Source: Chitinivorax tropicus
GTDB lineage: Bacteria; Pseudomonadota; Gammaproteobacteria; Burkholderiales; SCOH01
DNA length: 64,000 nt
Assembly (NCBI RefSeq): GCF_014202905.1
Contig: NZ_JACHHY010000001.1
Location: 62,001-126,000 of the forward strand
Reading direction: 5' to 3'
The position numbers and the translations under genes were made by a program. Under the pieces are notes generated by a model. The model made no database searches, had not been told where the DNA came from, and saw only the letters and a list, made by a program, of their open reading frames with translations. Positions 30,843-60,410 of the stretch are shown here, one piece after another. The number at the start of each line of letters is the position of its first letter. The stretch's first letter is position 1.

Positions 30843-30873
30843 GTGAAAAAGGGGGGCGCCCCCCTTTTTTCAC
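30843..30873. terminator. Strong bidirectional terminator after the DUF1566 lipoprotein operon
   Basis: A GC-rich hairpin GGGGGGCGCCCCCC flanked by GTGAAAAA on one side and TTTTTTCAC on the other, giving a T run on both strands. It lies 24 bases past the stop of the last gene of the minus-strand cluster. Confidence 0.85.
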
Positions 30874-30896: not shown

Positions 30897-33800
30897 TCAG
30901 TCGTGGATCAGATGGACATCTGCTCGCTTGAATCCGTCGAAACGATCCGATGCCTGGGTCAGCGGGTCATGGAGCACCCCCTGTGTGCAGGCTGCGTCGG
31001 GGCAGGCCCAGTGGTAGTAGATACGATTCTTTGGGTCCCGCACGAATCCGAGCGCCTTTTGATCGGCCACGGACAGCTCACTGACTGATTTCAGCTCGGA
31101 CAAGGTCACCAGCCGCCAGCCCCCTTGCACACCGCAAATGGATTGCTGATTATAGCGCGCCAGGTAGGCAGCGACGGTTTCGACGGTGTTGTCGAACTGG
31201 CTGCGATTCCACGGTCTGGCATCGCCACCGGGCAGCTTGTCAACGGGCTTCTCCGGCAGCAGCCACAGTTTGCCATCCGGGCGCTGATCCCGCCCGCAGC
31301 GGGCGTCACTCAGGCGCTGCGTCGGCTGGCCCAGTCGATCCGACCATTCCAATGCGCCCGGCATGGTGGGCGGATTATCGTCAGCAACCAGCCATGCACT
31401 GGCACGTGCCAAGGGGCGGTTCAGGATGAAGTCGCTTCCTTCTTGTGCGCCTGCCTGATCTGGGCGGCGGAAGGGGTAACGGCTGGCGACCTGATAACCG
31501 TTGTGCTGCTCCTGCGTCCAGTAATGGCTGGCGGGCAGCATGCCCTGCCAAAGCACATTTCCTTCGATCTTACCCAGGGCGGCCAACTCGGCCAGCTTGG
31601 GCAATCGCCAGCCGGATCGTCCACATAGCTGCCCTTGCTGCGCCAGCTCCATCAAATGGTAGGTGGTTTCCGGCTTGGCCGCACCCGCCACCGAGCCGCT
31701 CTGGCTGTACATCAAGGAGGATTGACCCCGAATGGTGGCCTGCGACGCGCTCTTGAGCTCGACATCGGCCAGCAACCATACTTGCTGGCGGACACGATCC
31801 TGCACACATGTCCAACCTTCAGCCATGCCAGCCTGGAGAGGGAGCGGCGAGCCATCGCGTGCCAGCTTGGCCCAAGGGGAGGCGCTTGCGCTGATGGCCT
31901 CCAACTGCCGCCTGAGCGGTATGTAGACAAGCATGCTTTGATTCAAGGCAGTCCGCCCTGCTGCCAGACGCAGTGCCAGGCGCTCAGCCAGCGCCTTGCG
32001 GGCGGTGTCGGCCTGAATTGCCACCAGCAAGGACTGCCCCGCCGCCAGCGCATCGGTTCCAGCCTGTTGCAGTCGCTGCAATGCCAACGATGACAGCGTG
32101 GCCGTCTGCAGGTGGGGCTGTGAGCCAGGCTGGGCCTGTAGCTCCTTCACCTCGCGCTGGAAGGCAGTTTGCCTGGCCTGGATTTCCAGCTGCTGATCAT
32201 CCATGGCCTGCAACCATTGCTCAACGGCAATCGCGGTGCGGGCTGCAGCGATATCCTGTACCAGCTTGGGGCGGGTGGCCTGGATATCTGCCAGCTTCAG
32301 CTGATTGGCTTGCTGTGTGGCCTGCCATGTAGCCCATGCGGTCGTGGCATCATCAGGCTGGGTGAACCCCCAACGGAGCGCGTTGCCACGGCTGGCATCC
32401 AACACCAGCTGGCGCAGGCTCTGCAACGCACTGTCCTGCGATGCCGATGCCGCCTGCAATTGTTTGTTGGCTGTCGGCAGTGCCTCTTCAAAACGCTTCA
32501 GCAGATCTGCTGTCGGCAACTTGGCCTGCCAGCCCGCCGTGGTGGCTGGCAGGGCGGCATGCGCGGCCAGCTGGGCATCGAGCGCCGTCTGCGCCGCTGT
32601 CAACGCTGCGATGCGGGTCGTCAGCAGCTGATCCAATGTGCCAAGGCTGGCCTGGGTGGGGCTGATCAAGCGGAGGCGGAGCTGCTGTTGCCTGCTGTCG
32701 TAGGTCGCCACCTGATCGATATGGCCCGCTTCCTGCGAGGCATACAGATACACCTTGCGCTGGAAGCCCCCTTGCTCATCGTATTGAAAATCGCTGCTCC
32801 AATACGCGCCGTTTGTCATCTGCGTGGGCTGGGACAAGCTTTGGTGATCCGGGAACAGGGCCTTGTCCAAGGTGGCCCAGTATCGGCCATCCAGTTTGAA
32901 GGGAGCGGTATTGAGCTCCTGCAATTGGGCCAGACTGGGTACTTGCCACCGGGTACGGCCACACAGTTTGGCCTTGTTGGCATCGGCCACCAGCTTGTCG
33001 ATGGCGGCTTCCTTGATGTCATCGGCCTGGGCGTCCGGCGCCGTTGCAAGCAGCCAGACATCACCTTGCCCCTGGTGGCGCTGGTCACCGATCAGCGCAC
33101 GTTGATCTTCGACACAGCGCCAGCCGCTGGCCAAGCTGCTGCTGGCCGACAACGCGGAGCCATCCGCAGCAAGCTTGCGCCATTTCCGGTCGAACGGGCT
33201 CTGCTCCACTGTCGGCTTGGCCACCGGTGGCGATTCCGGCGTGGCGGGCGTTGGCGGGCTCACCAGCTGTTTCGCCCATGCCTGTAACTGCTCTTCAGTG
33301 GCAGGCGTATCGGTGATCGGCAACCGGCCTAAGCCCGCCAACCGGGTCAACAGTTGATCGGTTGCAGCCAGATTGCCGCCCAGTTGCGCCAAACTGCGTG
33401 CCAGAACCAGCCCCTGCTGGTGGAGCTTGTTGGCGACGGCTTGTTGCTGACGGATGGCGAAATAGTCCCCAAGCAATGGGGCATCCTGGCCCAAGCCCAA
33501 CAATTGCCGCAAGGCCCGTGTTTCCTGCTCTGGGGTGGCGGGCGGTGTGGCTGGTCGATTCAGGCTGGCCTGCAGCATGGTCGTGAACGGGCTGATCACC
33601 GCACCTTGAAATTGCACAGGCGCCAGCAACCGATACTGTTCAGACTGACTGATCGGGCGATCTGCCCGATCAGCAGCCACCGCGCCAGTGCTGACTTCCG
33701 CCAGCAGCCAGGCTTGGGTCAGCTCCTGCTCTGACAAGGTCGAGCTGATCGAAAAGCGGTACTGCCCTTTCTGATCGGTCTGGCTTTGCGGCTCTTTGTC

Positions 33801-34031
33801 ATCACATTGGCCGTTACGATTCAGATCCAGGCATACCCGTGCGCCCTGCACATAGCCATTGATGACGGTGCCGCTCAGCTCGCGCGCTGCGGGCGGGGGC
33901 GCCGGCTGGGGCTGCTGGGATGCGGGCATGGGCGTGGCAGGCTCGGGTTGGCCTTTGTTTTCACTGCCACATCCGGCCAGCCCCATCATGACGATAGTGC
34001 CGGCCATTAGTCCAATATGTTGCATTGTCAT
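30897..34031 (-). CDS. Large lipoprotein with three DUF1566 modules and a helical middle region
   Basis: A 1044-residue exported lipoprotein; lipobox LAGC puts the lipidated cysteine at C21. A Pro/Gln linker is followed by an EF-hand-like loop of the form CxDxNxNxxCDxxEP (67-81) and a helical domain. DUF1566 (Lcl C-terminal) modules lie at about 284-460, 722-884 and 894-1044, each with the pattern W-x-C-V-x-D early and CGR-x-x-W-R-x-P-x-x-x-E-L (or close) later. The middle, about 470-705, is Ala/Gln/Leu-rich and probably coiled coil. The start at 34031 has GAGGAG 6 bases upstream. It is the last gene of the flavin cluster; a paralogue lies 10 bases upstream. The function of DUF1566 is unknown; surface binding is plausible. 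Confidence 0.88.
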   Translation of the reverse strand: MTMQHIGLMAGTIVMMGLAGCGSENKGQPEPATPMPASQQPQPAPPPAARELSGTVINGYVQGARVCLDLNRNGQCDDKEPQSQTDQKGQYRFSISSTLSEQELTQAWLLAEVSTGAVAADRADRPISQSEQYRLLAPVQFQGAVISPFTTMLQASLNRPATPPATPEQETRALRQLLGLGQDAPLLGDYFAIRQQQAVANKLHQQGLVLARSLAQLGGNLAATDQLLTRLAGLGRLPITDTPATEEQLQAWAKQLVSPPTPATPESPPVAKPTVEQSPFDRKWRKLAADGSALSASSSLASGWRCVEDQRALIGDQRHQGQGDVWLLATAPDAQADDIKEAAIDKLVADANKAKLCGRTRWQVPSLAQLQELNTAPFKLDGRYWATLDKALFPDHQSLSQPTQMTNGAYWSSDFQYDEQGGFQRKVYLYASQEAGHIDQVATYDSRQQQLRLRLISPTQASLGTLDQLLTTRIAALTAAQTALDAQLAAHAALPATTAGWQAKLPTADLLKRFEEALPTANKQLQAASASQDSALQSLRQLVLDASRGNALRWGFTQPDDATTAWATWQATQQANQLKLADIQATRPKLVQDIAAARTAIAVEQWLQAMDDQQLEIQARQTAFQREVKELQAQPGSQPHLQTATLSSLALQRLQQAGTDALAAGQSLLVAIQADTARKALAERLALRLAAGRTALNQSMLVYIPLRRQLEAISASASPWAKLARDGSPLPLQAGMAEGWTCVQDRVRQQVWLLADVELKSASQATIRGQSSLMYSQSGSVAGAAKPETTYHLMELAQQGQLCGRSGWRLPKLAELAALGKIEGNVLWQGMLPASHYWTQEQHNGYQVASRYPFRRPDQAGAQEGSDFILNRPLARASAWLVADDNPPTMPGALEWSDRLGQPTQRLSDARCGRDQRPDGKLWLLPEKPVDKLPGGDARPWNRSQFDNTVETVAAYLARYNQQSICGVQGGWRLVTLSELKSVSELSVADQKALGFVRDPKNRIYYHWACPDAACTQGVLHDPLTQASDRFDGFKRADVHLIHD

Positions 34032-34041
34032 GTTCTGCTCC

Positions 34042-36309
34042 TCAGCGCCAGCCATCGCCAGCAATCAGGCGGATCGTCGCCAGGTCAGTCTTGGCGCTGG
34101 GAAAGGGCACCGCGCCTGCCTTGTTGAAGGCGATCGTATACACCCGACCTGGGTCGTTCGGGACGGGGGACGCTGTCCAGAAACGGTCAGCGTTGTGATC
34201 TGCAATCACAAAATCCGGAAAGGTCGCCAGATAGGCCGGCACCATGGTCAAGCCATGCAGCGTTTCCTTGACCGTCAAGGTCTGTAGCTCCGCGACGGTC
34301 GGCAAGCGCCAGTCACGGCGTCCGCACAACCCCTGCTGGTTGACTTCAGCCACATAGGCGTCGGTGTTGCAAGTCTTCAGCGAACAGTTGGCCCGATCAT
34401 TGCGCTGATTGCCCCAGGCGAAGGTCTCCATCGAGTGGTGCAGATTGGCGCCGAGATCGTTGCGTTTCATTGCCCAGAACACCTTGCCACGGCCTGGGTA
34501 GCGGATGTCTTCGACACAGCTCCAGGGTTGCACCGGCCACTTCTGCTGGGCACCGATCACTGTCGTGCCATCACTGGCCAAGCGGCGGAACGCCAAGCGA
34601 TCCTTACGCGCCACCTCCTCCACTTCGGGCGTGCCGGTTGGGGCTGGCACAGCAGTCGGCCAATGACGGTCGGTGGCGATCAGGCGCACCCGATGCCGCT
34701 GGCTGGCGTTTTCCGAGATCAGACGGGCATCGCTCTTGCCCGATTGACCCAGGGCGCCACCGAAATCCGCCGCGAAATACATGCGATACAGGTCGGCAAT
34801 GTCACCGACTTTTTCGACATCACTCCAGAAGACATTGGCACCCGACGAGCCCAGCTGCAGGTCGGGGAAATAACCGATATAGGCAGCACGGTAGGTCAAG
34901 GGCGTGGTCTGCTCCACCATCAACATGCTCAGCTCGATCTGGCTAGGTACGCGCCAGTCACGCCGACCACAGCGCTGTTCACGATTGGCCCGCGCCACGA
35001 CATCGCTCAGCTCGGCCTGGGTGAAGCGTTCCTGCCGCTCGGCAACAGGCTGGATCTGCCAGAGCGTGCGTGGGCGATCAGCGTAGCGTTTGTCTTCGAC
35101 GCAGGCCCAGTCGGTGGCATCGCCAGCCAGGGCTTGGCCTTGGCCGTCGAGTTTGACGAAGGATTCCATGACAGCGGGCCGCTCGCCGCGCTCCGGGCGA
35201 TACACGGGTGGATCAACCGGCTCGCCCCGACCACCGCGTACCAGCCGGACATGATGCGCATCCCCCTTGTGACGGGTTTCCACATAGCGTCCGTTTTTCT
35301 GGCCCATGCCAAAGATCACCGTGAATGCGTTGTAGCGGGGGAAGCTGCCGCCAACATTGCCGTCATTGAACGGGTTGGCTTTGTCATCCATGGGCGGTGC
35401 AGTGGTGCCCGTCCAGTAGTTGACGTATTGCGCGGCATCGAACAGGCCATCTTGTTTGTACAAGGTATCCGGAAAGTAACGCGTATCGATGGCGGGCTGC
35501 TCTTCGCCACGCCAGTTCTGGTTCACCAGCGACTTGAGCTCTCGGTGGCTGGGCAGGCGCCAATCGTCATATCCACACAGGCGAAGCCGGTTGGCGGTTT
35601 CCACCAGGGTGTCGGTATCGCACTCATTGTCTGCCAACGCGCATTGCCCAGGAGCAGTCACCGTGTGGTACAGCCCGTTGCCCCAGCGATAGGTGGCCTG
35701 CCGGTAGAACGGGCTCTTGGCATCGGTATTGCCGATCATCCAGACCGCCTGCTGTTCGCGATCGAACACGCAGGGCCAGGGCTCGGCTTCGTACTTGGCG
35801 GCCTGATCGGCCAGGGGTCGGCTGCGTGCATCCAACTTGGTAAAGCGTGCGCCGACCGCAATGCGGTGCAGGCTGGCGGTGCCGGTCAACGTGGTGGTGC
35901 CATACTGTGGGTGCTGGCTGACTTCCACCTGATACTGGATGTCCAGCTGGCCGGCTTCCGGCCACGCCGGGAAGGTCAGCTGATTACCCACCAGCTTGGC
36001 CTGCGCAACCAGAGCTTGCGGGCCGGTCAGCCGCCAGTTCTTCCAGCTGCCTTGCGCATCTTGATAGAGGTTGACGACCATTGCATCGGACGCGTCGGCG
36101 GCCTGCACAGCGGCCACGGCTGGCAACATGGTTTGGGTGGTGGGTGGCGCCGGCTGGGGCGTCACGGCTGGCGGGGTGACGGGCGGGCTGGGCTGTTCTG
36201 CCGCTGAGCCTTTGGCGGTCGTCTCGTTGCTGCCGCCGCCTCCGCCGCCACACGCGGATAAAACGACCGTGGTCAGGACCACGGCTGGTGTCACTTTGGG
36301 AAAGTGCAT
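34042..36309 (-). CDS. Lipoprotein with three tandem DUF1566 modules
   Basis: A 755-residue lipoprotein. The lipobox LSAC gives C20, followed by a poly-Gly and then Pro-rich linker (21-60) typical of surface-exposed or periplasm-spanning lipoproteins. Residues 75-150 look like an Ig-like beta domain. Three DUF1566 modules follow at about 155-360, 385-545 and 575-755, marked by CGYDDWRLPSHREL, CGRRDWRVPSQIEL and CGRRDWRLPTVAEL. Each module has two or more cysteines that may form disulfides. GGGAGA lies 7 bases ahead of the ATG. The neighbours (ApbE, DUF3570, TlpA) suggest an extracytoplasmic role beside a flavin-bearing protein. Confidence 0.88.
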   Translation of the reverse strand: MHFPKVTPAVVLTTVVLSACGGGGGGSNETTAKGSAAEQPSPPVTPPAVTPQPAPPTTQTMLPAVAAVQAADASDAMVVNLYQDAQGSWKNWRLTGPQALVAQAKLVGNQLTFPAWPEAGQLDIQYQVEVSQHPQYGTTTLTGTASLHRIAVGARFTKLDARSRPLADQAAKYEAEPWPCVFDREQQAVWMIGNTDAKSPFYRQATYRWGNGLYHTVTAPGQCALADNECDTDTLVETANRLRLCGYDDWRLPSHRELKSLVNQNWRGEEQPAIDTRYFPDTLYKQDGLFDAAQYVNYWTGTTAPPMDDKANPFNDGNVGGSFPRYNAFTVIFGMGQKNGRYVETRHKGDAHHVRLVRGGRGEPVDPPVYRPERGERPAVMESFVKLDGQGQALAGDATDWACVEDKRYADRPRTLWQIQPVAERQERFTQAELSDVVARANREQRCGRRDWRVPSQIELSMLMVEQTTPLTYRAAYIGYFPDLQLGSSGANVFWSDVEKVGDIADLYRMYFAADFGGALGQSGKSDARLISENASQRHRVRLIATDRHWPTAVPAPTGTPEVEEVARKDRLAFRRLASDGTTVIGAQQKWPVQPWSCVEDIRYPGRGKVFWAMKRNDLGANLHHSMETFAWGNQRNDRANCSLKTCNTDAYVAEVNQQGLCGRRDWRLPTVAELQTLTVKETLHGLTMVPAYLATFPDFVIADHNADRFWTASPVPNDPGRVYTIAFNKAGAVPFPSAKTDLATIRLIAGDGWR

Positions 36310-36352
36310 GGACGGTTCTCCCTGTTAAATGTTTGTGTTCTTATGCGGTGTC

Positions 36353-37219
36353 TCAAGCTGTGGACCCCAGTGGATGTAGCGTCAGGTCTTCTGCAACCAA
36401 CACTGCCGCGCAATCTGGTGGCAAGGTCTGCAACGGCTTGACCAGCAAGGCCGTTGCCAACAGGCCCGCAGTCAAAGTGTCTGCGGCAATCACGCTGGCC
36501 TGCAGCCAGCCTGGCAGGGTGTCGCCCTGGGTGGGTTGAATGTGGGAGCGTGATGCGCCACCCAGCACGTTGCGCCGGGCGTGGTGACCAGAGCTGGCCA
36601 AGGCCTGGTCGTACAAGGTCAGGCCAAACAGCACTTCGCTTGGTTGCCGTGGGTTTTCGATGCCGATGGTGAAACAGTCGCTGTCCGGTGGCTGGCCGAA
36701 CACACGTAGATCCCCGCCAAAATTGACGATGCCTGCCGCCACCCCCGCCTGTTTCGCAAGGGTGACTGCCACATCCACCGCATGCTCTTTGATCACACCA
36801 CCGAGATCCAGACGGGTTGCAGCATGAGGTAGCTTCAATTGTCGATCTGACAACTGCCAGGCATCGAGCCCCATGGCCGCTTGCAAGGCCGCATGCCCTT
36901 GCCGGTAGTGCTCGGGATCGCGTACCAGCCTGAGCGCAGCCAACGTGCCGACGGTGATGTCAAATGCTCCCTGGCACCATGTCGACAATGTGCGGACACG
37001 ATGCAGCACCCGCGCGGTCTCCATGTCCAGTTCGACTTCGCTTGTCTGGCGGGTGTTGATGACCCGATTGAGCCAGGACGCCGGATCATGGAAGTTATAG
37101 CGCTGCTCCAGCCGTCGCACCTCAGCCTCGATGGTGCGCGCCAACCCTGCTGGCGCACCATGCAGGGTCAATTGGCAGGGGGTGGTCATGGCCACGAAGG
37201 CGTGCGTCGTCACCTGCAT
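36353..37219 (-). CDS. apbE: FAD:protein FMN transferase (ApbE family), no export signal seen
   Basis: A 288-residue flavin transferase that moves FMN from FAD onto a Ser/Thr of target proteins. Family features are DLGGVIKEHAVD (about 142-153), VNFGGDLRVFG (about 168-178), SGHHARR and the metal-binding ADTLTAGLLATAL near residue 255. It begins at the first strand of the mature enzyme (MQVTTHAFVAM) with no signal peptide or lipobox. An in-frame TGA lies three bases upstream of the ATG, so the start cannot be moved up. That TGA is also the stop of the DUF3570 gene, so the two are tightly coupled. The DUF3570 product is the likely substrate. Confidence 0.92.
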   Translation of the reverse strand: MQVTTHAFVAMTTPCQLTLHGAPAGLARTIEAEVRRLEQRYNFHDPASWLNRVINTRQTSEVELDMETARVLHRVRTLSTWCQGAFDITVGTLAALRLVRDPEHYRQGHAALQAAMGLDAWQLSDRQLKLPHAATRLDLGGVIKEHAVDVAVTLAKQAGVAAGIVNFGGDLRVFGQPPDSDCFTIGIENPRQPSEVLFGLTLYDQALASSGHHARRNVLGGASRSHIQPTQGDTLPGWLQASVIAADTLTAGLLATALLVKPLQTLPPDCAAVLVAEDLTLHPLGSTA

Positions 37220-37222
37220 GGG

Positions 37223-38377
37223 TCAGAACCGGTATTGCAGGCCCGCCGACAGCCAGTTGGCAGTCAGGCCGGTGGATTGTCGATAACGTGTCAAACCGGC
37301 GGTCAACTGCCAATCGGGGTGCACGCGCCAGTCGGTATTCAACGACACCGTATTGGCATTGAACCGGCTCAGCCGCTCATCGTTGCTGGCATAGCCGCTG
37401 AGCGAAAAGGCGGGTTCGGCGGCCTGCCAGGGGCGGTGGAAAAAGGCTGCGGTCTGGTGATAGCCCCGCCAGCTGGGCGAGACACGCCATGCCGGGGTCA
37501 CTTGCCAGGTCAGCTGGGCTTCGGCAGTGTGCGAACGGATTTCCCAGCTGTCACGGTAATAGCGATACGACAGCTGGCTGGCTACCGTCGGGTGCCACGC
37601 CTTCATCCACCGCAGCTTGACCCCGCCGCTGTCACGATTGCCAGGGCGACTGTCTGCTGCCAGATAAAGCGTATCGCCTTGCCGACGCAATACCGTCTGG
37701 TAATGGTTGGACAGAAAACCGTTGTCCCGTGCCGCAAAGGCGCGGGCTTCCAACAGGCTGTCCCGCGTCAGTACCCATTGCGCGCCCGCTGTCACACTGC
37801 TGACATCAAAGTGCTCGCGGGTCTGGCTGAAGTCATCGCGCAGAGCATCTGTTTCATTCCACTGCCGCGCCACGCCCATCAGCCATACCCAGTTGCGCTC
37901 CGCGTCCTGGTTGACGCGCGCCTCCAGTGAGACTTCCTTGCTGAGAAAGTCCTTCTCTTTGGAGTACGCCGCCCCCAGCGTCCACTCATCACGTCGGCCT
38001 GTCCGATAGGCCCAGCTGCCAGAGGCAGCCCGACGGGTGTCGGTCAGGGGAACTTTGCGCACTTGGTAGCGGCCATCTTGCGCCAGACCATACAGCTTTT
38101 CACCCTTCGCTGCCCGCTTGGCGTCATCAGGTGCGGCATATAGGGGTGATGCAGCCTGCCAGGCGGGTGTCGCACCAGAGATGGCGTCGTAGCTGGCATT
38201 GACGGTCAACGTGTGATCGGTGCCGATGTCGTGGCTGAGTTTGGCATGGGTGAAATCGACCGCAACCCGGTCATCGCCTTCCCGATAACGTGAATGTTGC
38301 AGATCAAAGGTATCCGCTGCCAGTGCTGCATCGGCCAGCATGGCTGCCGCAGAAAGAATCAATAAAGGTTTGCGCAT
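37223..38377 (-). CDS. DUF3570 protein, predicted flavinylated outer membrane barrel
   Basis: A 384-residue exported protein. A signal peptide (1-20, ending ALA) is followed by alternating polar/hydrophobic strands with many aromatic ends, finishing in GLQYRF. The C-terminal aromatic residue and strand pattern fit an outer membrane beta-barrel of the DUF3570 family. Residues 64-70 read DAISGAT, which matches the Dxx(S/T)GAT site that ApbE modifies with FMN; S67 would be excluded and T70 carries the flavin by analogy with NqrC-type sites. There is no cysteine in the protein. From memory, published genome mining named DUF3570 as an ApbE substrate family. The apbE gene starts 3 bases after its stop. 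The start at 38377 is chosen over a TTG at 38398. Confidence 0.9.
   Translation of the reverse strand: MRKPLLILSAAAMLADAALAADTFDLQHSRYREGDDRVAVDFTHAKLSHDIGTDHTLTVNASYDAISGATPAWQAASPLYAAPDDAKRAAKGEKLYGLAQDGRYQVRKVPLTDTRRAASGSWAYRTGRRDEWTLGAAYSKEKDFLSKEVSLEARVNQDAERNWVWLMGVARQWNETDALRDDFSQTREHFDVSSVTAGAQWVLTRDSLLEARAFAARDNGFLSNHYQTVLRRQGDTLYLAADSRPGNRDSGGVKLRWMKAWHPTVASQLSYRYYRDSWEIRSHTAEAQLTWQVTPAWRVSPSWRGYHQTAAFFHRPWQAAEPAFSLSGYASNDERLSRFNANTVSLNTDWRVHPDWQLTAGLTRYRQSTGLTANWLSAGLQYRF
38168..38188 (-). other. Codons of the predicted FMN-attachment motif DAISGAT
   Basis: Seven codons encoding D64-A-I-S-G-A-T70 of the DUF3570 protein. The pattern Dxx(S/T)GAT is the established ApbE target in NqrB, NqrC, RnfG and FMN-binding domains. 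T70 is the predicted acceptor of FMN through a phosphoester bond. Confidence 0.8.
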
Positions 38378-38382
38378 CGATC

Positions 38383-38607
38383 TCAGTTGCAGCCGCAACC
38401 GCCTCCCCCTACGCCATTGCCACCACGGCTGGCTTCCTTCGAGCTGAATACATGCTCATGCATCACGCCCGCCATCACATACGGCCCGCCTGCCTGCATA
38501 TCGTCTCGTGCCAGCTGGCCCTTTTCCCAGGGCTTGACCTGCGCGCAACCGGTATTCAGACAAACCACCGCCATACCCACTACCAACCAGACACGTCCGG
38601 CGCTCAC
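38383..38607 (-). CDS. DUF4266 small lipoprotein with CGC tail
   Basis: A 74-residue exported protein of the DUF4266 family. A hydrophobic N-terminus runs to C21 (NTGC, a weak lipobox). The mature part begins AQVKPWEKGQLAR, the family hallmark, and ends with a glycine run and CGCN (C71, C73). It starts with GTG overlapping the tlpA-like stop, and the DUF3570 start lies 5 bases past its own stop. DUF4266 genes usually accompany DUF3570 and a thioredoxin. The paired cysteines may bind a metal or be a thioredoxin substrate; that role is inferred. Confidence 0.88.
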   Translation of the reverse strand: MSAGRVWLVVGMAVVCLNTGCAQVKPWEKGQLARDDMQAGGPYVMAGVMHEHVFSSKEASRGGNGVGGGGCGCN

Positions 38608-39074
38608 GGCTTGGCCTCCAATGCTTGTTCGACAACCTTGTCCACATTGGGCATCGCTCCCGTCAGCACTTTGACCACTTTGCCCGCTTTGATGATGTAC
38701 AGGGCAGGCATGCCGATCGGTTTGAAGGCACTGATGATGTCCTGTTGCGGGTCATCCACCACCGGAAAGCTCAACGCACCCTTGGCCTTCATGTCCGCCT
38801 GGAAACGCTTGGCCAGCTGGGGGTCATCGTCCACATCCACGCCGACCAGCGCCATGCGCTGTGGCCCGAGGCGTTGATACAGGCGGGACAGCAGCGGCAT
38901 CTCATGCCGGCAGCTCTCACACCACGCCGCGAAAAAATCGACAACGACCGTCTGCTGATTACTGACCTGCAACCGAGACAACCAACGAGCATCTACCGTA
39001 TCGCCAACCTGATACGCCATCGCCCATGGCGACAGACACAACAGCGGCAAGACGCACCAACGAGAAACAGACAT
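38604..39074 (-). CDS. TlpA-like periplasmic thioredoxin
   Basis: A 156-residue thioredoxin-fold protein. A signal peptide (1-20, ending AMA) is followed by the active site WCESC with C52 and C55 in FFAAWCESCRHEMPL, and the cis-proline loop GMPALYII near residue 120. Such proteins reduce or isomerise disulfides in the periplasm. CAGGAGT lies ahead of the ATG. It overlaps the DUF4266 gene by four bases, so the CGC tail of DUF4266 or the Cys-rich DUF1566 lipoproteins are its likely clients. Confidence 0.92.
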   Translation of the reverse strand: MSVSRWCVLPLLCLSPWAMAYQVGDTVDARWLSRLQVSNQQTVVVDFFAAWCESCRHEMPLLSRLYQRLGPQRMALVGVDVDDDPQLAKRFQADMKAKGALSFPVVDDPQQDIISAFKPIGMPALYIIKAGKVVKVLTGAMPNVDKVVEQALEAKP

Positions 39075-39161
39075 GCACGACTCCTGAAGGGAATACCCTG
39101 CCCTGACGGTGCTTGCGGCGCCGTCAAAGCAGACTTGAAAAGGAAAAGGGAAATCAGCCGG

Positions 39162-40796
39162 CTAGGCTGGGGGATGGGCTCGCCAATCCAATCGATACCA
39201 CCGATTACCCCCTGCGACGATGTGCAATCGGTCGCCATGCAGCGCAAGCTGATTGATGGGGTCGGGCAGCCATGCGTCAGCCCGTAATTGGCCTGATCCC
39301 AAGTGATAGACCTGTACACGCTGATCGGGCAGCGAGACGGCCAGCCAGTCATGACTGATCGACCACTGCTGTGCCGCACCGGGCAGCCTAAGCTGGCGGA
39401 TCAGGCGGGGCTCAGCGCCCAGGGTGTGATACACGGAAATCTGCTGCCCCTCGACCACCACCGCCCAGTCACCCTGTGCTGCCATGCCGCTGGGCGCGGT
39501 AGCCAGCCGCCAGCCACTCAATGCCTGGCCATCCAGGCCAATGCGCAACAAGGACTGATCGTCCTGCGCCACCCACAACTCACGCGCCTGATTGGCCAGC
39601 GCCATATGCACAGGCTTGGCGGGCAGCGGCCAGCTCTGTTGCAGGGCCAGCTGCCCTGCATCCAGCTGCAGGATGCGCTTGCCAGGCCCATCCAGCGCCA
39701 GCAGCTGTCCCGCGCCTGCTCTGTAGACCACTTGCGAGATGCCGTCATTGACGCAGACTGGGGAACGGTCCAGCGCAATCTGGCTGCCCTGCTTGCTCAC
39801 CCCCCAGCGGAACACACCAAAGCTGGGCACCTCACCTGCGCTCAAGGCCCGGCAAGGTGTGGATTGAACGGTTGGCTTGGTGGCCGTCATCACGGCAAAC
39901 ACCACATGGGCGTCCGCACCAGCCACCAATTGACTCAACCCCTCAGACGGCGCAATGGGCTCATGCGTTGGAGTGGTGGGTGTCGAAGAGCCAGGCTGCG
40001 CGGGCGGCAACGGAACGGGCGGCTTGGGTGGCTGTGGGCGGGTGATGACCCCACTGGCACCACCCATGGCATGCATCATCGCCACCTCGCGACGCGGGCT
40101 GGGCAGTACATCCAATACCGTGTGCTGGCGATCAGCTGACAACAGTAGCAACCGATTGGGCTTGCTGGTGCCGACCAGTAGCTGCGAGCCCTGCCAGGCC
40201 ATGCTTGTCACCTGCTCGTCGCTGCCTGCCTTGGCGAACCCGGCCACCTCGACTGCATCACGCGCCATCGCTGGCATCCGCACCTCACTGGGACGACCAT
40301 TGGCCAGACTGGTGGCAGTCACTGCCAGCACCTGCTCCTGCAACCCCCATCCGGCCTGCGGCTTCAATACCACCTGCAATGCGGCTTCCAGCGTTGTGGA
40401 AGCAGGCCCCAAGCGAGCGGCCAGCTGTTGTTGCAATGTGGCTAACGGCAGGTCCGGTGATATCAACTGCATGGCGCGCAGCAAAGTGTGGTAGGCCGAG
40501 GGTGCCAACCCTGCTGGTGCAGCCAGCACGCTGAGCACTTCACCGGTTTCGGGGCTGATCTGCATCTGCAAACTTGGCCCTTGTCCAGATGCAGGCTCAG
40601 TGGCGTCGCAATGGAAATTGTCATTCGTATCGATGCAGCTGCGCTGAACAGGCTGTGGCGCCACGCTCACATTCGCCGTAGGTGATTTCTGCTCCCCACC
40701 GCCCCCACTGCCGCCCCCACCGCCGCAGCCGGTCATGGCCATCGCCACGGCCAAGGTCAGAGTGGAAAGCCTGCACAGAGAAAGATTGGTCACCAT
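39162..40796 (-). CDS. Lipoprotein with repeat (beta-propeller-like) C-terminal part
   Basis: A 544-residue lipoprotein; the lipid attachment cysteine is C24 (MTGC), followed by a glycine-rich linker. An EF-hand-like loop CxDxNxNxxCDxxEP at residues 54-68 has exactly the same spacing as one in the 1044-residue lipoprotein of this cluster. A helical region (80-160) is followed by about 350 residues of repeating short strands (for example LLLLSADRQHTVLDV, LLALDGPGKRILQLD, LLRIGLDGQALSGW) that look like blades of a propeller; the last blades end in RVQVYHLGSGQL and RLHIVAGGNRWYRL. It is the first gene behind two Fur-box matches. I do not know its function. Confidence 0.82.
   Translation of the reverse strand: MVTNLSLCRLSTLTLAVAMAMTGCGGGGGSGGGGEQKSPTANVSVAPQPVQRSCIDTNDNFHCDATEPASGQGPSLQMQISPETGEVLSVLAAPAGLAPSAYHTLLRAMQLISPDLPLATLQQQLAARLGPASTTLEAALQVVLKPQAGWGLQEQVLAVTATSLANGRPSEVRMPAMARDAVEVAGFAKAGSDEQVTSMAWQGSQLLVGTSKPNRLLLLSADRQHTVLDVLPSPRREVAMMHAMGGASGVITRPQPPKPPVPLPPAQPGSSTPTTPTHEPIAPSEGLSQLVAGADAHVVFAVMTATKPTVQSTPCRALSAGEVPSFGVFRWGVSKQGSQIALDRSPVCVNDGISQVVYRAGAGQLLALDGPGKRILQLDAGQLALQQSWPLPAKPVHMALANQARELWVAQDDQSLLRIGLDGQALSGWRLATAPSGMAAQGDWAVVVEGQQISVYHTLGAEPRLIRQLRLPGAAQQWSISHDWLAVSLPDQRVQVYHLGSGQLRADAWLPDPINQLALHGDRLHIVAGGNRWYRLDWRAHPPA
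40593..40637 (-). repeat. EF-hand-like loop shared with the 1044-residue lipoprotein (other copy 33789-33833)
   Basis: Both lipoproteins encode C-x-D-x-N-x-N-x-x-C-D-x-x-E-P shortly after the lipidated N-terminus. The D/N spacing suits calcium binding and the two cysteines could close a disulfide across the loop. The DNA copies differ, so this is a protein-level similarity. Confidence 0.7.
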
Positions 40797-40884
40797 CGCA
40801 CTCCATCTGGTATCAACTAAGGATCACCGAGGCATGCTGCTAGGCGCATCCACGGAATGGAGGCGAATTCTACTGTCAATTTTT

Positions 40885-40903
40885 AAGAATGAGAATAATT
40901 ATT
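40885..40903. promoter_or_regulatory. Fur-box match 1 (upstream of the flavin cluster)
   Basis: aagaatgagaataattatt agrees with the 19-base Fur consensus at 14 positions by my count. It lies 89 bases upstream of the ATG of the first gene of the cluster, in an AT-rich stretch that stands out from its GC-rich surroundings. Confidence 0.68.
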
Positions 40904-40978
40904 GTTAATTAATTTGCGCCAGATCAACGTACATATGCCTATCGTTGTTTGCAAATATTTGATTAATCTGATTTTCAT

Positions 40979-40997
40979 GTGAATGACAATCATTCTT
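40979..40997. promoter_or_regulatory. Fur-box match 2 (upstream of the flavin cluster)
   Basis: gtgaatgacaatcattctt also agrees with the 19-base Fur consensus at 14 positions by my count, including an unbroken AATCATT core. It is about 94 bases from match 1. The site lies between the minus-strand cluster and the plus-strand CWC/rph genes and could act on either side. Confidence 0.68.
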
Positions 40998-41147
40998 ATC
41001 CTGTGAGTTAGTCAGGCCAATAAAACTGTCGGTAACTGACAGGTGTATCATCCCAACCATGTCCCACGTCACCCATCATGCGATCCGCTGAGCGTGGTCA
41101 TCCTGCGTCCACCTCTTTATCCAATACACTGCACACAGGCCCCAGAC

Positions 41148-59708: not shown

Positions 59709-60410
59709 TCAAGCAGCGACCTTGCCTTGTGATTTGAGGGTACGGGCGGCCAGCCATTTACCGATCACCACCACCAACGCGGCACCCGTTCCACACAGCA
59801 CCCATTTCCATAAGGGCGAGGCATCGTGGATCAAGGATTTGAATGCCACATCCGTCGCCACCATGTCACCGGCGATCCAGCCCAGTAATGCACCGCCCAA
59901 CACCACCACGACAGGAAAGCGGTCCATCAGCTTCATGACCAGCTTGCTGCCCCATACGATGATGGGCACGCTCAATGCCAAGCCAAATACAATCAGACCC
60001 ATGCTGTCGTTCGAGGCGCCGGCAATCGCGATCACATTGTCCAGGCTCATGACGGCATCAGCGATGATGATAGTCTTGATCGCGCTGAACAGTGTCGTGC
60101 CACCATCGATCTCATGGCCACCGTCTTCAGGCTCCGGCTGAAGCAATTTGACACCGATCCACAACAGCATGGCTGCCCCAGCCAGCTTGAGATAAGGGAT
60201 CTGCAACAGCGTGATGGCAAAGAAAATCAGGACGACGCGCAGCAAAATGGCACCGAACACCCCCCAGAAAATACCCTTTCTGCGCAATTCATCCGGAAGC
60301 TTACGACAAGCCAACGCAATCACGACGGCATTATCCCCGCCCAATACAACGTCAATGGCCACGATCTGCAACAACGCCATCCAGAACTGTGGCGAGGTGA
60401 TATCCATCAT
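59709..60410 (-). CDS. TerC-family integral membrane protein
   Basis: A 233-residue membrane protein of the TerC/Alx/YjbE family with about seven helices. The metal-site motifs are VVLGGDNAVVIAL near residue 20-30 and ADAVMSLDNVIAIAGAS near residue 118-134. Family members export manganese or metallate secreted proteins. Two perfect hairpins lie in the leader upstream of its start. The start could be 60410 or 60407. Confidence 0.92.
   Translation of the reverse strand: MMDITSPQFWMALLQIVAIDVVLGGDNAVVIALACRKLPDELRRKGIFWGVFGAILLRVVLIFFAITLLQIPYLKLAGAAMLLWIGVKLLQPEPEDGGHEIDGGTTLFSAIKTIIIADAVMSLDNVIAIAGASNDSMGLIVFGLALSVPIIVWGSKLVMKLMDRFPVVVVLGGALLGWIAGDMVATDVAFKSLIHDASPLWKWVLCGTGAALVVVIGKWLAARTLKSQGKVAA

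Follow-up and report, generated by a model that had tools for sequence, protein, structure and literature searches.

A lineage-specific, probably Fur-repressed version of the DUF3570 flavinylation system in Chitinivorax tropicus

What is the task of a cluster that joins a flavin transferase to a series of envelope proteins in Chitinivorax tropicus, and does it represent a system of a new kind? The cluster occupies positions 30897-40796 on the minus strand of the window, by which we mean the 64,000-nucleotide stretch of contig NZ_JACHHY010000001.1 analyzed here. Its seven co-directional open reading frames (ORFs) encode, in order, a propeller lipoprotein, a TlpA-like thioredoxin, a DUF4266 protein, a DUF3570 protein, an ApbE flavin transferase and two Lcl_C lipoproteins. 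An earlier note on this DNA had listed seven minus-strand genes with short gaps or overlaps, which the ORFs and Pfam matches bear out, and had read them as an iron-responsive module unlike any description. The most likely reading is that the cluster forms a heme-free conduit bringing electrons from DsbD to an outward-facing flavin under iron scarcity.

The core of the cluster (thioredoxin, DUF4266, DUF3570 and ApbE) is the known DsbD-type flavinylation system published by Meheust et al. (2021, eLife, PMC8238504), and the claim of an unrecognized module fails for these four genes. The cluster as a whole is almost certainly a variant of the DUF3570 system. That paper counts 285 DsbD clusters, whose typical companions are ApbE, DUF3570 (in 227), DUF4266 (in 221) and a thioredoxin-like protein (in 183), and 316 more clusters that combine ApbE, DUF3570, a thioredoxin-like protein and DUF4266 without an adjoining DsbD. 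The proposed electron donor of the DUF3570 system is DsbD, and a Chlorobium DUF3570 protein was flavinylated when co-expressed with its own ApbE in E. coli. The DUF3570 protein of the window carries one flavinylation motif of the [S/T]GA[S/T] type, DAISGAT at residues 64-70 with Thr70 as the site, which confirms the flavin mononucleotide (FMN) attachment motif noticed earlier. The C-terminal CXC of DUF4266 is also present (GGGGCGCN); a glycine-rich C-G-C motif is found in the tail of all 75 copies matched, 45 of which have GGGGCGCN itself. The earlier note had left the electron donor open, and indeed no DsbD is encoded in the cluster. However, there is one elsewhere in the same genome, dsbD is the last gene of the cluster in an Iodobacter metagenome-assembled genome (MAG; L070), and a dsbD gene is also close to L203 and L217, two clusters from the wider class.

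We modelled the DUF3570 protein with AlphaFold2 from 52 alignment rows (predicted local distance difference test score, pLDDT, 87.7; predicted template modelling score, pTM, 0.82). The model has 18 strands, and 16 long strands make up a barrel, the hairpin at 228-241 being left out of the count. Foldseek and VIA-align both match it to outer-membrane barrels. With VIA-align the matches include a BamA model (Z 21.9, root-mean-square deviation (rmsd) 3.8, 277 aligned), PelB (Z 21.2, rmsd 3.7, 261 aligned), a polysaccharide secretin (Z 20.2, rmsd 3.8, 256 aligned), BcsC (Z 19.6, rmsd 4.3, 297 aligned) and OmpG (Z 17.8, rmsd 3.9, 251 aligned). Model and sequence together have the features of an outer-membrane barrel, namely a signal peptide, an even-stranded closed barrel and a C-terminal Phe. 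Comparison with solved structures by sequence gave nothing meaningful, the best values being 0.083 for DUF3570 and 0.029 for the first Lcl_C lipoprotein. On the strength of the model, DUF3570 is very likely an outer-membrane barrel, which supports the earlier description of a 'surface' redox system.

Even-stranded barrels usually have both termini in the periplasm. With both DUF3570 termini periplasmic, three long loops of 28, 26 and 30 residues would therefore all lie outside; loops in the model average 12.9 residues on the assigned extracellular side and 3.4 on the other. The DAISGAT motif is near the outer-side end of strand 3, and Thr70 would face the lumen by in-out alternation. With conservation set at 85% of rows or more, 35 of the 45 conserved positions fall in the outer half, compared with 217 of 362 barrel positions (p 0.006), and 22 of 30 compared with 114 of 234 when strands only are counted (p 0.003). 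Those of the outer half include Arg37, Glu141, Asp143, Arg244, Arg272, Asp276, Arg304, Gln308, Asp333 and Arg335. In the model, this conserved cluster at the outer mouth looks like an active site, and the flavin probably faces outward. No cysteine occurs in the DUF3570 sequence, and a thiol partner must therefore hand electrons to the flavin.

Ordinary signal peptides were recognized by eye in the TlpA-like and DUF3570 proteins and none in ApbE, a lack on which the earlier note had made no comment. We scored export on the longest possible frames, a protein passing when nine consecutive residues, located ahead of the domain or at its start, have a mean hydropathy of at least 1.9. In a first sample the test was passed by two of 55 ApbEs, 65 of 67 TlpA-like proteins, 74 of 75 DUF4266 proteins and 67 of 77 DUF3570 proteins; one contig is counted twice among the 55 ApbEs (as L049 and L069), which also include some truncated copies and a gene away from its cluster (L080). 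Neither of the two passing ApbEs (L059, L066) resembles a clear signal peptide. A second sample gave one of 16 ApbEs (L219 being a fragment), all 19 matches to the TlpA profile (two of them DsbD), and 18 of 20 for both DUF4266 and DUF3570. The sole passing ApbE (L221) has a signal peptide, and the motif of its DUF3570 partner is eroded to SSAS, a pair that would fit a connection between motif loss and ApbE export. Outside such clusters, 14 of 18 ApbEs scoring above 100 bits with the profile pass, including the second copy of the same genome, which has a lipobox. Most cluster ApbEs have KEYAVD or KEYAAD in place of the KG of most controls, and AG or SG at a site occupied by AD in 7 of 16 controls. 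An ApbE without an export signal suggests that the flavin is attached before export, and from the sequences we lean towards a DUF3570 protein that is flavinylated before it leaves the cytosol.

How far is the arrangement conserved? In a tree of 52 DUF3570 proteins, the window protein forms one clade (100/100) with those of a sister species (L048), Chitinimonas sp. BJB300 (L069, evidently the same contig as L049 by length and gene content) and the Iodobacter MAG. Two further groups stand apart from it, one of 27 other members of the order (97/98) and one of 21 sequences that are mostly Verrucomicrobial (100/100). The sister species has all seven genes in the same order, with six proteins 39-76% identical, and BJB300 also has all seven. 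The Iodobacter cluster consists of tlpA, the DUF4266 and DUF3570 genes, apbE and the propeller lipoprotein gene, together with a gene for an EF-hand-domain lipoprotein, before dsbD. The gene-order comparison called for earlier thus finds the seven genes travelling together in two relatives but only five of them in the third. The Iodobacter propeller orthologue was recognized by hhalign (98.5% probability) and missed by the profile at 1e-4; the other lipoprotein has only the N-terminal EF-hand-like domain in common with the product of the last gene (97.9% by hhalign, over 135 columns), and the cluster gave no Lcl_C match.

DUF4266 occurs in 43 of 399 genomes of the order, and the genome of C. 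tropicus has one DUF3570 match. In 47 stretches of the order (L048 and L049 included; several end early) DUF3570 and DUF4266 are found in all 47, a TlpA-like protein in 42 and apbE in 37, three apbE genes lying about 5 kb away. A class-wide search with the DUF3570 profile of the clade matched 94 of 369 genomes, with 649.8 bits for the C. tropicus protein and 134.9 for the next. The lipoprotein profiles at 1e-4 matched in none of the 45 non-clade stretches of the order and none of 20 stretches of the class. Among the loci examined, the lipoproteins are confined to the DUF3570 clade of the window.

Several features of the wider DUF3570 loci were seen in passing. At L058, L059, L062 and L221 the DUF3570 motif is eroded (SNAS, TNAS or SSAS) though TlpA-like and DUF4266 genes adjoin and apbE lies within about 6 kb. 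Two DUF3570 sets stand in tandem at L074 and L075. Several of the mostly Verrucomicrobial loci (L071-L095) have, downstream of DUF4266, a gene of about 300-400 residues whose product starts roughly MKxxRxPxLxLAxxLQLAPLxR. Unusually long DUF3570 frames, more than double the normal size (about 900-1000 residues in complete cases), occur at L052, L053, L054, L119, L122, L126, L127, L130, L134 and L138-L141; these mostly have the motif QDTWSGA(T/S) and mostly belong to family f16 of the order.

Two Fur-box-like sites precede the first gene of the cluster, as the earlier note had stated, each with 14 of 19 matches to the 19-bp E. coli consensus, a scoring that would miss other kinds of Fur site. 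The proximal site overlaps the first hexamer of a sigma-70-like promoter (TTCTCA-17-TAGAAT, 40895-40867). Among 2000 dinucleotide shuffles of 40797-41042, at least one site of 14/19 appeared in 63 and at least two in 6. The orthologous site of the sister species matches at 17/19, a score reached by none of 1000 shuffles, and its promoter context is the same, with AATTGACAGTAGAAT following the box in both species. The Iodobacter cluster is preceded by a 15/19 box (8 of 1000 shuffles reach this score). A Fur box over the promoter is kept in three of the four clade clusters, BJB300 being the exception. That all three boxes fall within these 4 of 69 clusters has p 7.6e-5 assuming independence, and the clusters are not independent.

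Beyond the clade, no site of 14/19 or better was found within 500 bp upstream of any of 65 DUF3570 loci (45 from the order and 20 from the class, of which L204 has no upstream sequence and L205 only about 410 bp), and we rejected the Fur box as a general trait of DUF3570 clusters. Several of these loci have sites at least 700 bp upstream, such as L140 (1065 bp) and L203 (about 780 bp), which we take as background. The 15-mer ATAATTATTCTCATT of the proximal site is found in the C. tropicus genome in two exact copies, one with one mismatch and nine with two; its reversed control gives no match. The one-mismatch copy belongs to a 16/19 site upstream of a DUF2325 gene (taking an internal ATG as its start), which is followed by bfd (bacterioferritin-associated ferredoxin) and bfr (bacterioferritin), and a second 15/19 site stands before bfd (L175, C35:7701). 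This arrangement suggests that the DUF2325 protein may belong to the iron regulon. The second exact copy is upstream of a short stretch and a gene for a solute-binding protein (C27). We dropped the idea that this protein is FbpA-like and do not use it as iron evidence because the family calls do not give FbpA; Pfam identifies no more than a solute-binding protein, and the NCBIfam match, which is below its cut-off, points rather to aminoethylphosphonate. Besides a canonical Fur, the genome encodes two more members of the family. Control of the cluster by a Fur-family protein is likely from these predicted sites. The boxes of the sister species and the Iodobacter MAG and the bfd-bfr context speak for the Fur-type control proposed earlier, but no such link was seen in DUF3570 clusters generally. 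The sole other 19-mer in the window with at least 14 matches to the consensus is at 60063-60081 (15/19).

We propose that cytosolic ApbE would place FMN on Thr70 of the unfolded DUF3570 protein, which Sec and Bam would then deliver. DsbD, whose gene lies elsewhere in the genome, would take electrons from cytosolic thioredoxin and hand them to the TlpA-like thioredoxin, from which they would pass through the CXC tail of the DUF4266 lipoprotein to the flavin in the DUF3570 barrel, into which the flexible tail may reach. At the extracellular mouth the flavin would reduce an external acceptor; given the probable iron control of this clade, ferric chelates are the first candidate. Docking or substrate gathering would fall to the propeller and Lcl_C lipoproteins, as parts peculiar to the clade with calcium-binding loops. 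The route from DsbD to flavin by way of the thioredoxin-like protein is the one already proposed (PMC8238504), and the location of the flavin and the timing of its attachment are added here. That the cluster is a lineage-specific, probably Fur-repressed version of the DsbD-thioredoxin-DUF4266-DUF3570-ApbE system working in this way has, in our estimate, about an even chance. Ferric reduction as its main task is a tentative assignment. The picture in full detail, in which a DUF3570 barrel loaded with FMN in the cytosol keeps it through Sec and Bam, shows it outward, is fed by the CXC of DUF4266 and serves in this clade as an iron-starvation ferric reductase with docking lipoproteins of its own, is possible and rather doubtful.

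Several observations weigh against this scheme. The export test is a custom hydropathy threshold and not SignalP, and the topology of DUF3570 is inferred from the model and general rules. Polar conserved residues also occur in the inner half of the barrel, with Asp64 of the motif itself, Arg115 and Asn162. The ApbEs of the clade (window, L048, L069, L070) have lost a stretch of the H-(I/V/L)-x-(D/N)-P-x-x-G type that is kept by most relatives, and their activity is not assured because of this loss; the remnants are SHIQPTQG, SHIPAADT and SHVVNAAS. They keep SHI/SHV and (S/T)S(G/A)HxAR. The DUF3570 proteins of the window and the three other clade members have one flavinylation motif compared with the two conserved motifs reported for ApbE-associated DUF3570s (PMC8238504); one motif is also found in most Verrucomicrobial members. 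The BJB300 cluster has all seven genes and a best Fur-box match of 12/19, which 402 of 1000 shuffles reach. Finally, the cluster encodes neither an iron transporter nor a TonB receptor, and no reductase whose activity is known. The absence of cytochromes and TonB receptors had been noted correctly (CXXCH is found in none of the seven proteins). However, a complete ferric reductase or metal-acquisition module, as earlier suggested, is not borne out by a cluster with no iron transporter or TonB receptor, and its substrate is not readable from sequence.

The acceptor may be something other than iron. The same conduit would then reduce quinones, peroxides or oxidized envelope proteins, and the flavin route would replace heme-based envelope electron transfer under iron shortage. 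Such a role would suit Fur-box control of a cluster that holds no iron-uptake genes, and the core task need not be iron because none of the 65 other DUF3570 loci has a box within 500 bp. The idea that flavins may stand in for iron cofactors in iron-poor settings is itself raised in PMC8238504. However, the same paper reports the VIT1 iron transporter in 25 DUF3570 clusters, and the outward position of the conserved site suits an external acceptor. We consider a non-iron acceptor unlikely. The available portions of two papers on iron and flavinylation (PMC6037834, PMC11870441) contain nothing on the DUF3570 system.

A different objection concerns the compartment. ApbE is typically periplasmic according to a 2025 review (PMC12052999), and with a barrel topology that is a prediction, the enzyme might be exported by an unrecognized route and meet DUF3570 in the periplasm, where the flavin would serve in an ordinary relay. 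This is improbable given that an N-terminal hydrophobic stretch is absent from 53 of 55 and 15 of 16 ApbEs even in their longest ORFs, and that the flavin site is on the long-loop side of the barrel. Attachment in the cytosol, which we prefer, resembles the situation in Klebsiella, where a cytosolic ApbE likewise without a signal peptide acts on a fumarate reductase (PMC12052999). That substrate is soluble, whereas the one proposed here is an exported protein modelled in the outer membrane. In the open-access literature searched we found no description of a cytosolic ApbE that loads a substrate destined for export.

The two Lcl_C lipoproteins score 136.5 bits (first) and 47.5 bits (second) with Pfam Lcl_C, compared with a gathering score of 34.9. 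Three stretches in each account for the six DUF1566 modules counted earlier, and the five Lcl_C matches in the genome are all within these two genes. The full-length first lipoprotein is found in three of 399 genomes of the order (C. tropicus, the sister species and BJB300), each time beside this DUF3570 cluster, and ten of its cysteines are invariant in the three aligned orthologues. At least a portion of it is matched in 50 of the 399 genomes, 11 with a DUF4266 match and 39 without, and a general tie between Lcl_C domains and DUF3570 was rejected on this count. The earlier note would have counted DUF1566 lipoproteins apart from DUF3570 and ApbE against the association; Lcl_C domains are indeed found away from the system, whereas the full-length protein is not. 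The propeller protein of the window gave nothing significant with Pfam (best 0.058); its fold is supported by AlphaFold2 and Foldseek with a moderate model (pLDDT 64.9, 4 rows). Orthologues are present in L048, L069 and, by hhalign, L070, and that of L069 matches beta-propeller models at 2.7e-10, below curated cut-offs. The EF-hand-like loops of the propeller protein and the last lipoprotein also occur in L048, L069 and L070. From their domain types we infer that the propeller and Lcl_C lipoproteins serve in docking or substrate gathering. The reverse relation, in which DsbD and TlpA shuffle or reduce disulfides of cysteine-rich Lcl_C surface adhesins and the redox genes serve the lipoproteins, would fit the ten invariant cysteines and a weak match to the NCBIfam surface adhesin Lsa25 (1.5e-08, 34.8 bits compared with a cut-off of 260), but it is very improbable given 65 other DUF3570 loci unmatched by the lipoprotein profiles, a DUF3570 protein without cysteine and an Iodobacter cluster without an Lcl_C match.

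In porin-cytochrome conduits of the MtrAB type, a barrel serves as the passage for electrons across the outer membrane. Such a barrel-borne crossing is here proposed only, and it differs in that CXXCH is absent and the redox group would be FMN on the barrel itself. Other Lcl_C/DUF1566 surface proteins share the Lcl_C domain in a lipoprotein, whereas three modules per protein are found here. The closest comparison is with the DsbD-type DUF3570 clusters as far as PMC8238504 describes them. Common to both are ApbE, a DUF3570 protein with [S/T]GA[S/T], a thioredoxin-like protein and DUF4266 with a C-terminal CXC. The cluster described here differs in its three additional lipoproteins, its Fur boxes, one flavin motif in place of two, a dsbD elsewhere in the genome, a thioredoxin that best matches AhpC-TSA (PF13899 being the family counted in the paper), a divergent ApbE and a DUF3570 protein from a separate clade. 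With the PepSY/DUF2271 clusters that the same source links to iron reduction it shares ApbE-flavinylated envelope redox genes, Fur-controlled in some bacteria. However, neither PepSY nor DUF2271 is among the Pfam matches of the seven proteins, and the flavinylated substrate is a modelled barrel instead of a small soluble domain.

Our open-access full-text search found DUF3570 named in one paper, PMC8238504, which also names DUF4266 and whose main text does not contain the word 'barrel'. In its available part, a 2024 structural follow-up (PMC11334425) mentions the outer membrane once, among places where substrates occur. The core is known; the barrel form, the unexported ApbE, the iron control and the lipoprotein extension were not found described in the literature so searched. 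Should the barrel model and the lack of an export signal in ApbE hold true, bacteria would have a heme-free, flavin-based electron route across the outer membrane whose cofactor is loaded before secretion, contrary to the usual view of ApbE as a periplasmic enzyme. The Fur-boxed clade would supply an inducing condition under which the acceptor could be sought.

The features of the locus are collected in the table. From first to last gene, the intergenic spacing with refined ends is 87, -4, 5, 3, 43 and 10 bp. The DUF3570 start was set at the ATG preceding the signal peptide in place of a TTG at 38398, and that of the second Lcl_C lipoprotein at the ATG that gives the lipobox LAGC in place of a TTG at 34064. 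By eye, a lipobox is recognizable in four products (MTGC, LNTGC, LSAC and LAGC).

Table. Genes and predicted signals of the DUF3570 cluster, in window coordinates
Feature	Position	Strand	Basis
Distal Fur-box-like site, 14/19	40979..40997		consensus match and shuffles
Proximal Fur-box-like site, 14/19	40885..40903		consensus match and shuffles
Lipoprotein (MTGC) with EF-hand-like loop DTNDNFHCDATE and C-terminal beta-propeller (moderate model)	39162..40796	-	ORF, model, motif scan
TlpA-like periplasmic thioredoxin, WCESC	38604..39074	-	Pfam AhpC-TSA 7.6e-15
DUF4266 lipoprotein, C-terminal GGGGCGCN	38383..38607	-	Pfam DUF4266 2e-14; GTG start overlapping tlpA stop
DUF3570 protein with signal peptide, modelled 16-stranded outer-membrane barrel, DAISGAT	37223..38377	-	Pfam DUF3570 2.7e-58
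ApbE flavin transferase, KEHAVD type, no signal peptide	36353..37219	-	Pfam ApbE 8.9e-45
First Lcl_C lipoprotein (LSAC), three Lcl_C/DUF1566 modules	34042..36309	-	Pfam Lcl_C 6.4e-40
Second Lcl_C lipoprotein (LAGC) with EF-hand-like loop DLNRNGQCDDKE and three weak Lcl_C modules	30897..34031	-	Pfam Lcl_C 2.6e-12
Terminator-like G+C stem and T-run, 3' of last gene	30852..30864	-	terminator scan

The strong terminator reported earlier is present as a stem with a T-run. However, the scan gave 11 such sites compared with 9.2 expected, and the site is therefore weak evidence alone. A further hairpin of eight pairs with a weak T-run lies at 36266-36285 on the minus strand, directly after apbE and within the opening codons of the gene for the first Lcl_C lipoprotein, where it could damp expression of both Lcl_C lipoprotein genes.

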